This document shows positions 3,715-9,684 of a stretch of 42,736 bases of DNA, one piece after another. The position numbers and the translations under genes were made by a program. The DNA comes from Bacillota bacterium (GTDB taxonomy: Bacteria > Bacillota > DTU025 > MWDF01). Numbering within the stretch: the stretch's first letter is position 1; each line of letters begins with the position of its first letter. The stretch is from positions 37,552 to 80,287 of the forward strand of contig JAKQNF010000036.1 in assembly GCA_029565935.1 (NCBI GenBank), in the 5' to 3' direction. The notes under the pieces are model-generated. The model worked only from the letters and a program-made list of their open reading frames with translations, made no database searches and was not told where the DNA came from.

Positions 3715-4956
3715 ATGTCGGAATACAAGCTGTTCACCAGCGAATCGGTGACAGAGGGGCATCCGGACAAGGTATGTGACAGGATATCGGATGCCATACT
3801 GGATGAGATATTGATCAAGTACGAAGGCAGCAAGGACAGGCTAAGGGCAAGGTCCGCGGTCGAGACCCTCGCCACCACAGGCATGGTCCTCGTGGCGGGC
3901 GAGATAACCTGCGACGTCTACGTGGAGATCCCCGAGATCGTCAGGAATTCGGTGAAAGAGATAGGCTATAACAGCCCCAAGCAGGGATTCGACGGCAACA
4001 CGTGTGCTGTGCTGACGGCGATTCACGAACAGTCGGAGAACATAGCCAGCGCCGTGAACCGCCAGAACCTTGCGGCCGGCGACCAGGGCATAATGTTCGG
4101 ATATGCGACCGACGAGACGCCGGAGCTGATGCCCATGCCAATCATGGTTTCCCACAGGCTCGCCGAAAGGCTAGCCAAGGTGAGGAAATCCGGGGAGCTG
4201 GTATGGGTCAAGCCGGACGGCAAGACCCAGGTTACCGTCGAATACGACGAGAAGGGAAGGCCCGTCGGACTGGATACCATAGTGGTGTCCACCATGCATG
4301 ACGTCGGGACCGACCAGGAGACGATAAAGCGCGATGTCTTCGAGAAGGTAATAAAGCCGGTGGCCGCGGATTACGGCTTCTACTGTGCGACTTCGCCGGA
4401 CATGAGGTGCGAGATCGGCAAGAGCTTCGGCGTCCATTTCGAAGGCTCAAGGAGCACCACGAACATATACATCAACCCCAGCGGCATGTTCCACTTCGGC
4501 GGCCCTAACGCCGACACGGGCCTCACCGGCAGGAAGATCATAGTCGACACGTACGGCGGCATGGCCCCGCACGGCGGAGGCTGCTTCTCCGGAAAGGACG
4601 CCACCAAGGTGGACAGGTCGGGCAACTACACCGCAAGGTACGTGGCCAAGAACATCGTCGCCGCAGGCCTTGCGAAGAGGTGCGAAGTGGAGCTGGCATA
4701 CGCGATCGGGGTCGACCATCCGGTCGCGGTCAACGTAAATACGTTCGGCACGGGCAGGATCGGCGACGAGCGGATAATGAAGCTCGTCAAGGAATCGTTC
4801 GACCTTACGCCAACTGGCATGATAGAGAAATTCGGGCTGTTCGACGTAAGCCGCGACGGCTTCAACTACAAGAGGCTTTCGAGCTACGGCCATTTCGGCC
4901 GCAAGGCGGAGCATGCGCCGTGGGAAGCCACGGACACCGCGGAAAGGTTGAGATAG
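3715..4956 (+). CDS. metK: S-adenosylmethionine synthase
   Basis: Makes S-adenosylmethionine from methionine and ATP in the cytoplasm. The 413-residue protein is slightly longer than the usual 380-400. It has the expected motifs: GHPDK near residue 17, the ATP loop [10 protein letters not shown] near residue 123, [20 protein letters not shown] near 285, and a late [11 protein letters not shown] strand. ATG 3715 follows AGGAGGG by 4 bases. Only 54 bases separate it from the upstream gene, so a SAM riboswitch does not fit there. A strong terminator follows. Confidence 0.97.
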
Positions 4957-5023: not shown

Positions 5024-7195
5024 ATGGAGAGGATAGAGGCCACAATCCAGAGGGTCACCTTCAGGAACGAGGAGAACCTGTTCACGGTAGTAAGGCTCAA
5101 GGTGGACGGGACGAAGGGCGAGGTGACCGCCACGGGCAAGTTCCCCACCGCCAAGGCGGGGCAGCTGGTCGTCGTCATGGGCGAGTGGACCGTACATCCG
5201 ACCTACGGCAGGCAGCTTGCGGTCGCCGAGGTGGAGTACACGGAGCCCAAGACCAAGAAGGGCATAGAGAAGTACCTGGCCTCGGGGATAATCCCTGGCA
5301 TAGGCCCGTCGAAGGCAAGGGCCATAGTGGAGCACTTCGGTACTAAGGCGCTGGAGATACTCGACGAGGACCCTTCGAAGCTCCTTGAGATAAAGGGCTT
5401 CGGAGAGAAGATGGTGCAGAAGATAGCCAAGGGCCTTTCCGAGCACAAGGCGGTAGAGAGGATAATGGTGTTCCTAAGAGGGCACGGCGCCACCCAGTCA
5501 GACGCTATCAAGATCTACAAGGCCTACGGCGACAGGGCGATAGAGACCATAAAGGAGAACCCCTACAAGCTTGCGGCGGAAATCAGGGGCATAGGCTTCA
5601 AGAAGTCTGACGCGATAGCTTCGGAGCTGGGCTTCAGGAACAACCACCCGTATAGGGTGATGTCAGGGGTATCACATTTCCTCATGGCCGATTCCGACGA
5701 GGGCCATTGCTACTCCGACCTGGACGAATTCTCCCCCCGTGTTGCCGGACTGCTGGGCGTGGACGAGAACGACGTGAGGAAGGCCGCGGTCTCGATGGAC
5801 GGCGGCGAGGTGGCGCTTGAGGACGGGCACAGGCTCTTCTGGGCCCCGCTGTGGTACGGCGAGCGCGGTGTCGCGAAGCTCATGTCCAAGCTCACGGACA
5901 CCGGATTGTGGAAGATGGAGGGCCCGGGCGAGGACGAGATGGAAGCGCTCGATGCCGAATGCGGCCTCGAGCTCGCAGACGCCCAGAAGGCCGCCGTCAG
6001 GGCCGCCATGTCCAACGGCATAAGCATATTGACGGGAGGCCCCGGCACCGGCAAGACGACCACGATAAAGGCGATAATCGCCCTGTATGAGAGAAGAGGC
6101 TCCAAGGTGCTGCTCGCGGCGCCGACCGGCAGGGCCGCCAAGCGCATGAGCGAGGCAACAGGAAAGCCGGCGATGACGATCCATAGGTTATTGGAGTTCC
6201 AGCCCAGAGAGGACGGCTGGAGGTTCGCCAGGGACGAGAACAATACGATAAAGTGCGACGCTCTCATCATCGACGAGATGTCCATGGTCGATATCATGCT
6301 GATGTACAGCCTGCTCAAGGCCATTAAGCCCGGCACGGTGCTGGTGCTTGTGGGCGACGTCGACCAGCTCCCTTCGGTCGGCCCCGGCAACGTCCTGAGG
6401 GACCTGATAGATTCCAAGACCATAACCACCACCGAGCTCACTGAGATATTCAGGCAGGAAGGCCAAAGCGGCATCGTGACCAACGCCCACAGGATCAACG
6501 AGGGGGAATTCCCCGACCTATGGGGCAAGGAGGACTTCAGGTTCGTCCAGAAGGAAGAACCGACGGAAGTCGCATCGGCAATCATCGACCTGGCATGCCG
6601 CATCATTCCCTACAAGCTCGGCCTGGACCCGGTATCGCAGGTCCAGGTGCTGTCGCCAATGAGGAAGGGCACCGCCGGCGTGGAGAACCTTAACTTGATG
6701 CTGAGGGAGAAGCTCAATCCGCCGAGGAAGGAAAGGCCGGAGCTCAAGTACGGCTTCACAAGCTTCAGGCGGGGCGATAAGGTGATGCAGACCAGCAACA
6801 ACTACGAGAAGCTCGTCTGGAACGGCGACATGGGCATAGTGACGTACGTAGACGCGGAAGAAGGCGAGCTGGTGGTGAGCTTCCCCGACCCCGAGGGCGA
6901 CAGGTCCGTGAAATATGCACAGCAGGAACTGGACCAGCTGGAGCTAGCGTTCTGCATCTCGATACACAAGAGCCAGGGAAGCGAGTACCAGGCGGTGGTC
7001 ATGCCCATCACGACGTCGCACTACATGATGCTGAGGAGGAACCTCGTCTATACCGGCATAACCAGGGCGAGGTCCTATGTGGCGATAGTCGGCACGAAGA
7101 AGGCGATGGCCATAGCCATAAGGAACGCAAGCGTCGCCGAAAGGCGGACCAGGCTTGCCCAAAGACTTCGCGAAGGCGACCTTGAAGAAGTATAA
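5024..7195 (+). CDS. recD2: ATP-dependent 5'-3' DNA helicase RecD2
   Basis: A superfamily 1B helicase acting in recombination and repair in organisms or pathways without RecBC. The 723-residue protein fits the family length. The N-terminal OB-like region begins MERIEATIQRVTFRNEENLF, as usual for RecD2. A helix-hairpin-helix stretch GIIPGIGPSKARAIVEHFG lies near residue 90. Walker A GGPGTGKTTT is near residue 340 and Walker B IDEMSMVD near 418. The C-terminal domain holds ISIHKSQGSEY and YTGITRAR (motif VI). No Shine-Dalgarno sequence is visible upstream of ATG 5024, yet family homology supports this start. The next gene may be partly separated by a hairpin. Confidence 0.95.
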   Translation: MERIEATIQRVTFRNEENLFTVVRLKVDGTKGEVTATGKFPTAKAGQLVVVMGEWTVHPTYGRQLAVAEVEYTEPKTKKGIEKYLASGIIPGIGPSKARAIVEHFGTKALEILDEDPSKLLEIKGFGEKMVQKIAKGLSEHKAVERIMVFLRGHGATQSDAIKIYKAYGDRAIETIKENPYKLAAEIRGIGFKKSDAIASELGFRNNHPYRVMSGVSHFLMADSDEGHCYSDLDEFSPRVAGLLGVDENDVRKAAVSMDGGEVALEDGHRLFWAPLWYGERGVAKLMSKLTDTGLWKMEGPGEDEMEALDAECGLELADAQKAAVRAAMSNGISILTGGPGTGKTTTIKAIIALYERRGSKVLLAAPTGRAAKRMSEATGKPAMTIHRLLEFQPREDGWRFARDENNTIKCDALIIDEMSMVDIMLMYSLLKAIKPGTVLVLVGDVDQLPSVGPGNVLRDLIDSKTITTTELTEIFRQEGQSGIVTNAHRINEGEFPDLWGKEDFRFVQKEEPTEVASAIIDLACRIIPYKLGLDPVSQVQVLSPMRKGTAGVENLNLMLREKLNPPRKERPELKYGFTSFRRGDKVMQTSNNYEKLVWNGDMGIVTYVDAEEGELVVSFPDPEGDRSVKYAQQELDQLELAFCISIHKSQGSEYQAVVMPITTSHYMMLRRNLVYTGITRARSYVAIVGTKKAMAIAIRNASVAERRTRLAQRLREGDLEEV

Positions 7196-7231
7196 AAGGG
7201 CTAGTTAGCAGGCAATCAGGTACTTTATGTT

Positions 7232-7262
7232 GAACACGGCATCAGAGGTGATGGCCGTGTTC
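7232..7262 (+). promoter_or_regulatory. Hairpin carrying the comFA ribosome-binding site and start codon
   Basis: A perfect 9-bp inverted repeat, 7232-7240 with 7254-7262, is followed by a T-rich run (TTCTTTAT). The AGAGG at 7244-7248 lies in the loop, and the likely comFA GTG start at 7257 lies in the right arm. It could act as a recD2 terminator, as a translational control element for comFA, or both. The geometry is seen directly; the function is inferred. Confidence 0.55.
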
Positions 7263-9044
7263 TTCTTTATCTATCACATAGAAAAAGGCCCGTACGGCGG
7301 TACTGGCGTCGGTATGAGCCCATGCCCCGAATACGACCTGCTTATGGCCCTTGAGGATGGGCTGGCTACCATGCACGTAATATCGCCGCCCATGAAGCTG
7401 GCGCAGGCCTTCAGGGCACTCAAGGACGTTAAAGAGCAAGCCGACAAGGACTTGAAAAGGTCCTTTGGCAGGGTGGCGAGGAGCGTGGCGATCTACGGGG
7501 CGGGGGCGAAGATGCCATCGTCCCCCGTTAGGGTGCACGCGGTTTCGCAGCCTCCCAAAGAGGAGGTGGAGAAAGTCGCAAGGCTGCTGGAGACGAGGAT
7601 CAAGGGAAGGATACTAAGGTTCGCGGAGCTGCGCGCGCTTCTGGAGCCGAGCGGCCCGTCCATGGTCGCGATGGCGGCGCAGCGCCTTATCTTAAGATCC
7701 GGCATGCTGGTGATGCCGGGGATAGCGTACAGGGGCTACGGCGGTCGAGTATGTTCCAGGTGCGGGGCCACCGCCGGCTTCGTGATGACGGACTGCTCAT
7801 CATGCGGCTCTTCCTGCTGCCTCATATGCGGAGAATGCGCGGCCATGGGAAGCGTGAGCGAGTGCGAACCGCTGTACGCCATGCCGGCGGCTCCGGGGAA
7901 GAAGGAGGCCGATCGGCGCCATGAGCCGGTACTGAGGTATGAGCTGACGTCGGCTCAGAAGAGGGCGTCTGGCAAGATCAGGGATTGGTACCTTGAAGGA
8001 AAAGGGGACGAGGCGCTCGTATGGGCGGTCTGCGGGGCGGGCAAGACGGAGGTCAGCTTCGCGGCCATGGCAGAGGCCCTCAACAGGGGCGAGAAGGTGC
8101 TGTACGCCGCGCCCAGAAGAGACGTCGTGGCCGAGATAGGCGAGAGGATCCAAAGCGCCTTCCCCCAGGCCTCCTGCTCCTCCTATTATTCCGGCAGCAC
8201 CGCAAGGAGCAACAGGCTCACTAACATCACAGTCGCGACGACGCACCAGGCGTTGAGGTTCTACCGCTGCTTCGACCTTACCGTCCTCGACGAGGTCGAC
8301 GCATTCCCATACCAAGGTTCGAGGATGCTAGAGCACGCAGTAAGGAGGGCGAGGTACGAGACAGGCAAGACGATCTTCATGTCGGCGACGCCTTCCAAGC
8401 AGCTCATGGACGATTCAAAAAAGGGGCTGATACTCACGGCGAGGATATCTGCCAGGCACCACGGACACCCGTTGCCGGTGCCGGAGGTGGCGGCCATCGG
8501 CCCGCTTTCGAGCGGGATGATATCCAATGATAAGGTGGTACCGCCGTCAGGGCTTATGGACGCGGTAAAGGAGAGCCTGGTGGAGGGGCATAAGCATTTC
8601 GTCTTCGTCCCTAGGAAAGCAGCCGCGGAAGCAGTCTCGAAGACCATCTTAGGTGCGCTGGAAAAAGAGGCCGAGCACAATCCCGTCGTCGGCTGGTCCC
8701 ATTCTTCCGACCCCGACCGCGAGAGGAAGAGGAGGGCCTTTACCGCAGGAGGGATGGATGTGCTGGTCTGCACTTCTATAATGGAAAGGGGCGTCACGGT
8801 GCCGGGATGTGACGTGACAGTGCTCGGGGCGGACAAGGATTCGGTGTTCGACTATAGGTCGCTGGTGCAGATGGCAGGAAGGGCGGGGCGCCAGAAGGCG
8901 CGGCCGACCGGAAGGGTCACCTTCGTGTGCGAAAAACCAAACGCAGACATAAAGCAGGCCATAGAGATAATCACCGAGATGAACGACGATGCGCTGAAAA
9001 ACGGGTTTTTGGTAAAGGAGGGCCTCGAAGATGGAGATTGCTGA
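7257..9044 (+). CDS. comFA: ComFA-like DNA helicase / DNA translocase
   Basis: ComFA is the cytoplasmic ATPase that helps pull single-stranded DNA into the cell during transformation. A cysteine cluster near residues 165-195 (CSRCG, CSSCG, CCLICGEC) matches the ComFA zinc finger. Walker A is AVCGAGKTE near residue 257, the DEAD-type motif is DEVDAFPY, then FMSATPS, and motif VI is QMAGRAGRQ near the end. At 595 residues it is longer than B. subtilis ComFA (about 460), with an extra N-terminal part of roughly 100 residues. GTG 7257 is chosen because AGAGG ends 8 bases before it; ATG 7227 and ATG 7251 are in-frame alternatives with poorer spacing. The reading frame overlaps the next gene by 14 bases. 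Confidence 0.88.
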   Translation: MFFFIYHIEKGPYGGTGVGMSPCPEYDLLMALEDGLATMHVISPPMKLAQAFRALKDVKEQADKDLKRSFGRVARSVAIYGAGAKMPSSPVRVHAVSQPPKEEVEKVARLLETRIKGRILRFAELRALLEPSGPSMVAMAAQRLILRSGMLVMPGIAYRGYGGRVCSRCGATAGFVMTDCSSCGSSCCLICGECAAMGSVSECEPLYAMPAAPGKKEADRRHEPVLRYELTSAQKRASGKIRDWYLEGKGDEALVWAVCGAGKTEVSFAAMAEALNRGEKVLYAAPRRDVVAEIGERIQSAFPQASCSSYYSGSTARSNRLTNITVATTHQALRFYRCFDLTVLDEVDAFPYQGSRMLEHAVRRARYETGKTIFMSATPSKQLMDDSKKGLILTARISARHHGHPLPVPEVAAIGPLSSGMISNDKVVPPSGLMDAVKESLVEGHKHFVFVPRKAAAEAVSKTILGALEKEAEHNPVVGWSHSSDPDRERKRRAFTAGGMDVLVCTSIMERGVTVPGCDVTVLGADKDSVFDYRSLVQMAGRAGRQKARPTGRVTFVCEKPNADIKQAIEIITEMNDDALKNGFLVKEGLEDGDC

Positions 9045-9684
9045 GAAGGTCGGCAGGGCCGCTCGGAAGCTCATATATTCTGCGTTCCCTGAACCTCATC
9101 GGTGTCTGGCCTGCAAGGATGCCCTCACCAGGGAGGCTTTGGGCATCAAGCTCTGCCACGCATGCTCTTCAAAGCTGGCCACGGCGATCGTATTCATGAG
9201 GGAACCTGGCGGAAGCGGGGGCGGTCTCAGACGATCAGCCGTCAGTCTCAGCTCCGAGGCAGGATGCCTTGCAGACATACTCATAGCAGGAGGTAAAGAC
9301 GGCCATGCGGCACTTTCCAAGGCAGTAGCCCATGCAGTCCCCATCATTGAGTACATGGGAGTGGATTCTGTATACACGATGCAGGCAAGGCCTAAGGTGG
9401 GTAAGGATATGCCGATGAATGCGCTTGGAAGGTCCATGGCGGCCGCTTTCGTCTGCAGGTACATGGGAGCCATACCGTCCGCAGGCGGATCATGGCAGGA
9501 CGCCAGCATCTCCAGGTATTCGGGGAAGGGCCTCGGCAGGGGGCAAGCCTCATCGTATCCGCTCATGCTCTTGCCGTATGGGCAGGACCTCGATCCTGCG
9601 GTCGACCTGCTCGCCGTGCGCGGCGCGGTGAAGATCATGACGGTGCAAATAGGGAGGTATCATGTTGAGCAGGATAGGGTATAA
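9031..9684 (+). CDS. ComFC-like protein lacking the PRPP-binding motif
   Basis: This 217-residue protein overlaps comFA by 14 bases, the position of comFC in many Firmicutes. It keeps the N-terminal cysteine pairs (CLACKD and LCHACSSK) of ComFC. The order of hydrophobic segments also fits a type I phosphoribosyltransferase, down to a final RGAVKIMTVQIGR that lines up with the last strand. The expected PRPP loop, hydrophobic-DD-x-x-TTG, is absent: its place is held by LLPYGQDLDPAVDLLAV. The usual PVP and RGFNQ-type segments are also hard to find. I infer a diverged, probably catalytically inactive ComFC relative. The start fits an AAAGGAGG about 8 bases upstream. Confidence 0.65.
   Translation: MEIAEKVGRAARKLIYSAFPEPHRCLACKDALTREALGIKLCHACSSKLATAIVFMREPGGSGGGLRRSAVSLSSEAGCLADILIAGGKDGHAALSKAVAHAVPIIEYMGVDSVYTMQARPKVGKDMPMNALGRSMAAAFVCRYMGAIPSAGGSWQDASISRYSGKGLGRGQASSYPLMLLPYGQDLDPAVDLLAVRGAVKIMTVQIGRYHVEQDRV

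Follow-up and report, generated by a model that had tools for sequence, protein, structure and literature searches.

The window, by which we mean the whole 42,736-nucleotide stretch of DNA analysed here, belongs to a genome (G000) from an uncultured Bacillota genus, 1.80 Mb in size and 98% complete. On its forward strand it carries an open frame for a ComFC-like protein of 217 amino acids without a PRPP site (9031-9684), with orthologues in both congeners (G001 and G002). The gene overlaps the 3' end of comFA (7227-9044, forward strand) by 14 nt, and a Shine-Dalgarno-like AAAGGAGG (9014-9021, forward strand), recognised from the sequence, is found 9 nt upstream of its ATG. comFA encodes a helicase-like ATPase in which GAGKTE, DEVD, QMAGRAGR and the Cys motif are all in place; in G001 and G002 its start is the codon matching window position 7248, and the best named relatives of the window comFA are from Bacillota MAGs and isolates. 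The upstream neighbour in all three species of the genus is recD2 (5024-7195, forward strand, TIGR01448 match), and the gene order recD2, comFA, ComFC-like gene, DUF401 is common to the window genome and both congeners. A metK-like gene at 3715-4956 lies just 5' of recD2-comFA; metK also adjoins the dead ComFC of another genome, G035.

Motifs kept and lost

An earlier note on this DNA had assigned the gene to the comFC position overlapping comFA and had described its PRPP loop as replaced by unrelated residues. The overlap was confirmed, and the comFA-ComFC order is that of the sister families. Alignment with intact ComFCs found no DDxx[TS][TS]G loop in the protein; PLMLLPYGQDLDPA (9559-9600, forward strand) stands at its site, located by a collinear profile match from TTGAT on. 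The loss extends further than had been claimed, as the VPVPLHxxR and RGFNQ motifs of the PPi-loop region are also absent from the alignments, which place their site approximately, in an uncertain register, at residues 112-131 (9364-9423, forward strand). The approximate site of the flexible loop (Q..L.R) reads WQDASISR (9493-9516, forward strand). Across the three species of the genus, two clusters, WQxxSxxR and AHAxPxxEYxxxDSxY, are invariant together with four cysteines. The latter (C25, C28, C42 and C45; 9103-9165, forward strand) make up a zinc ribbon that matches the ComFC profile.

The statement that both CxxC pairs are kept is correct for this first zinc ribbon; the protein has a single ribbon only, and the second of the double ribbon found in the sister families is gone. 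With four CxxC pairs (DZR_2) in the intact ComFCs of those families, we conclude that one ribbon was lost too. A double ribbon is not strictly defining for ComFC, since a single ribbon occurs in nature as well (H. pylori, PMC9005727; several of our sampled loci). Searches of Pfam and NCBIfam, including PF00156 and TIGR00201, returned no phosphoribosyltransferase match for the protein, and its best family matches were generic zinc ribbons (L37ae, DZR_2).

Orthology to ComFC

The N-terminal half, with its FPEPxxCxxC...CxxC start, matched the profile of intact ComFCs (hhalign, E 5.4e-5). For the C-terminal half the best local match was collinear and extended from the PRPP loop (TTGAT versus PYGQD), through the next helix, to the last strand. 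Little in this half is recognisable (an equally high score was reached by 2 of 120 column shuffles), and its global profile alignment was not usable. The AlphaFold2 models were of low confidence (pLDDT 59 when 36 homologues were supplied, 35 alone), and a PDB fold search with them found no fold match. Searched against PDB sequences, the genus profile retrieved generic ribosomal zinc ribbons only. Orthology is supported by the N-terminal profile match, the collinear C-terminal match and the gene order. Judged from these sequence comparisons, the gene is a ComFC orthologue and a predicted pseudoenzyme, having lost the PRPP/nucleotide-binding site and one of two ribbons. We regard it as a variant within a known family and not as a new kind of system; the link to DprA described below is an addition.

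ComFC in related genomes

Comparison with related genomes, which the earlier note had proposed, found no intact loop in the congeners: in both, the gene lies behind comFA, open and without the PRPP motif (55% and 31% identity in G001 and G002, respectively). In the sister families of the order, where the loop is intact, the gene behind comFA encodes an ordinary ComFC (260-300 amino acids) that has a double zinc ribbon, DDVxTSGAT and RG(F/Y)NQ; the copy in one sister-family genome (G003) is broken by unread bases. Among 80 named comFA loci, 71 had a ComFC in the flank examined and 9 did not. Two of the 71 were cut by a contig end, and the remaining 69 were full length, all with the canonical loop. 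All loci collected gave 120 other distinct ComFCs of full length, and 118 of them had a canonical PRPP loop, a count that includes two proteins missed by a stricter pattern (L170 and L181, both reading DDIYTTG).

The two exceptions came from G035 and G043. In the G035 protein (L080:4382-5098) the PRPP loop is destroyed (LIDAKWGEGAVM) and RGFNQ is lost, with the full double zinc ribbon present; its gene is located between metK and selA-selB, with no comFA within the 9 kb read. The G043 ComFC (L199:4213-5007) is partly degenerate, with DDILVTG and with RRCYDHVQ replacing RGFNQ.

The comFC of G070 (L205, about 3870-4573) is split across frames, the zinc and hood part in one and DDVYTTGAT in another, owing to either a frameshift or a sequencing error. 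DDVYTTG is intact and RGFNQ absent in the ComFCs of G312 (L211:1510-2223) and its relative G020 (L206:3600-4292); G020 has a DprA match and G312 has none. Three further ComFCs (L203:4286-5509, L204:3346-4374 and L201:4190-5563) contain long low-complexity insertions between the zinc ribbon, hood and PRTase core, with repeats of SASSLAPAAIPAS or NAPNIASNVAP in two of them. At L131, L136 and L185, from several Bacillota MAGs, comFA is followed by a gene that, by eye, looks to be of the PilZ/YcgR type, and no comFC is present there.

Selection on the ComFC-like gene

Relaxed selection, which the earlier note had named as counting against its reading, was not what we found. Between G000 and G001, whose synonymous distance above 1 makes all such values rough (pairs with G002 were saturated), dN/dS of the ComFC-like gene was 0.22-0.28 by three methods (NG86 bootstrap 0.16-0.37), indicating purifying selection that is weaker than on comFA (0.14-0.15); comEC gave 0.19-0.21 and recD2 less than 0.06. 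By part, the estimates were about 0.12-0.21 for the zinc half and 0.29-0.37 for the C-terminal half, so that constraint appears to be tighter on the zinc half than elsewhere in the gene. The gene is the fastest changing of its neighbourhood, at 55% identity between G000 and G001 versus 81% for comFA and 95% for recD2, and its third-position GC is lower than that of comFA. Simulated neutral copies stayed open in 3.4% of cases at 0.3 substitutions per site and in 0.05% at 1.3, indels not being counted. The ComFC-like gene looks to be still translated and constrained.

DprA and the remaining DNA-uptake genes

DNA that enters the cell is normally received by DprA. Two models, one of them run at E up to 10, detected no such protein in G000, G001 or G002; DprA was found in 93 of 101 relatives and, within the order, in 8 of the 9 genomes outside the genus (the exception is 87% complete). 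The eight without it were G000, G001, G002, G035, G043, G064, G010 and G085. All five genomes with a degenerate ComFC (G000, G001, G002, G035 and G043) thus had no DprA match; G064 has no ComFC, and in G010 (87% complete) and G085 (84% complete) ComFC is intact. ComFC was not intact in 6 of the 8 genomes without DprA versus 5 of the 93 with it (Fisher p 9e-6, uncorrected for kinship; 5e-4 with the genus counted once), the five DprA-positive cases (G011, G018, G056, G070 and G082) being called from weak or broken best matches. These absences rest on draft genomes, of which that of G035 is 7% contaminated.

We also took a wider sample, overlapping with the 101, of 399 genomes that were no less than 90% complete; 13 of them were without DprA, and ComFC was scored in these 13. 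Ten had no ComFC match beyond PRTase-core matches in other ORFs, two had a dead ComFC (G000 and G035) and one, G312, had an intact one, an open frame with DDVYTTG that is an exception to the association; 12 of the 13 therefore had no intact ComFC. Several of the 13 retain ComEC. The lack of DprA in G000, G001 and G002 suggests that the ComFC-like protein may no longer serve full transformation.

We found no second intact comFC in G000, another check named in the earlier note: PF00156 and TIGR00201 matches in other ORFs covered the PRTase core at most, with no zinc ribbon. A search of genome contigs with the ComFC-like protein alone gave no match. comFA is present in all three genus genomes. 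In G000 and G001, comEA and comEC lie side by side, and ComEC is an open frame with the metal motifs HGHLDH, HHG and GHP in place; neither gene was seen in G002, which is 77% complete.

Discussion

We favour the reading, with a probability of roughly 0.55, that the ComFC-like protein has no catalytic function and acts as a partner of ComFA within a pared-down system for DNA uptake that lacks DprA. The remaining zinc ribbon would hold the small protein on ComFA, where it would act at a ComEA-ComEC-ComFA importer that presumably still takes up DNA. In cells without DprA the imported DNA would no longer be passed to the usual transformation pathway, and the purpose of uptake may be the use of DNA and not recombination. 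The preference for a zinc-ribbon partner of ComFA derives from work on H. pylori ComFC, whose zinc cysteines are required for transformation and membrane association, whereas its PRPP-loop mutant T165A retains part of its activity (PMC9005727), and from the binding of ComFC to ComFA, for which a passage in PMC8262900 cites Diallo 2017. ComGA also co-precipitates with ComFA, ComFC, ComEC and DprA (PMC8262900). The proposal of the earlier note that ComFC works here by binding ComFA alone, without phosphoribosyl chemistry, is partly supported, as it fits the gene's linkage to comFA, the retention of a zinc ribbon and the published binding. In its favour, the gene is open behind comFA in three species, where neutral drift would almost always break the frame, and a degenerate ComFC occurs without DprA in two other families (G035 and G043). 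Against it stand a rate of change that is the highest of the neighbourhood, as expected from decay, the barely recognisable C-terminal half with its low pLDDT (59/35), the failure to see ComEC in G002 (77% complete) and the importance of the H. pylori PRPP site for translocation, with a drop of more than 40-fold (PMC9005727).

The main rival is slow decay, in which the genus lost natural transformation with DprA. The comFC gene would then be a remnant undergoing erosion, its frame open for the time being because of the overlap with comFA and a low residual constraint. We consider this possible but doubtful. Selection relaxed relative to comFA and a lower third-position GC are what erosion would produce, but a bootstrap dN/dS of 0.16-0.37 and a frame open in three species at dS > 1 are not readily explained by it. 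Likewise, the second zinc ribbon and all PRTase motifs are lost, yet the clusters AHAxPxxEYxxxDSxY and WQxxSxxR and the four cysteines are invariant. DprA is absent from the genus genomes, and ComFC is usually missing entirely in DprA-less genomes of other families (10 of 13); ComEC and ComFA, however, are still constrained.

It is improbable that the C-terminal half was repurposed in the genus, gaining a new ligand or partner and a role outside DNA uptake. The persistence of the comFA overlap in all three species and of the ComFC zinc ribbon argues against this, although the invariant motifs are genus-specific and no fold is recognisable. Very unlikely is the replacement of comFC behind comFA by an unrelated small zinc-ribbon protein: the generic best family matches (L37ae, DZR_2) and weak C-terminal homology would allow it, but the FPEPxxCxxC...CxxC start fits the ComFC profile (E 5.4e-5), the best C-terminal match is exactly collinear between PRPP loop and last strand, and the gene order is that of the sister families. 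We rejected a sequencing or assembly error because, draft assemblies notwithstanding, three independent ones agree on a changed gene that is always open behind comFA and evolves in a codon-like manner.

We know of no accepted answer as to why a DNA-uptake protein is phosphoribosyltransferase-like. As a tentative extension, losing the ComFC PRPP site may recurrently accompany the loss of DprA, with lineages keeping ComEA, ComEC, ComFA and a dead ComFC as an importer that no longer feeds recombination. The PRPP site would then serve to pass DNA on to the DprA pathway and not to transport it. Being under purifying selection and found only where DprA is undetected, a natural ComFC that lacks the site separates the two halves of ComFC through evolution and not through mutation. 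It directly predicts a link between the PRPP pocket and the DprA-dependent processing of DNA that has been taken up. This prediction is in tension with H. pylori, for which a ComFC structure with PRPP is available and in which the pocket was important for translocation but not needed for handling in the cytoplasm (PMC9005727).

With the ComF family (TIGR00201; DZR_2 PF18912 plus PRTase PF00156), the window protein shares its place behind comFA, the FPEP start, the N-terminal four-Cys ribbon, the order of segments and, where the PRPP loop would be, a weak match in the C-terminal half. It differs in lacking DDxxTTG, VPVPLH and RGFNQ, in going undetected by the ComF model and in having one ribbon versus two in its sister families. 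The H. pylori PRPP-loop mutant T165A likewise keeps the zinc finger and has lost nucleotide binding, a loss measured there and only predicted here; its transformation falls more than 40-fold, with ssDNA binding, membrane targeting and partial transformation retained (PMC9005727). T165A, however, is a laboratory point mutant of an otherwise intact site, whereas in the window protein all motifs have gone, naturally and in a DprA-less genome. The G035 protein, from another Bacillota family, resembles it in the destroyed PRPP loop, the loss of RGFNQ and a genome without a DprA match, and differs in its double ribbon, its clear overall similarity (101 bits) and its location behind metK, away from comFA.
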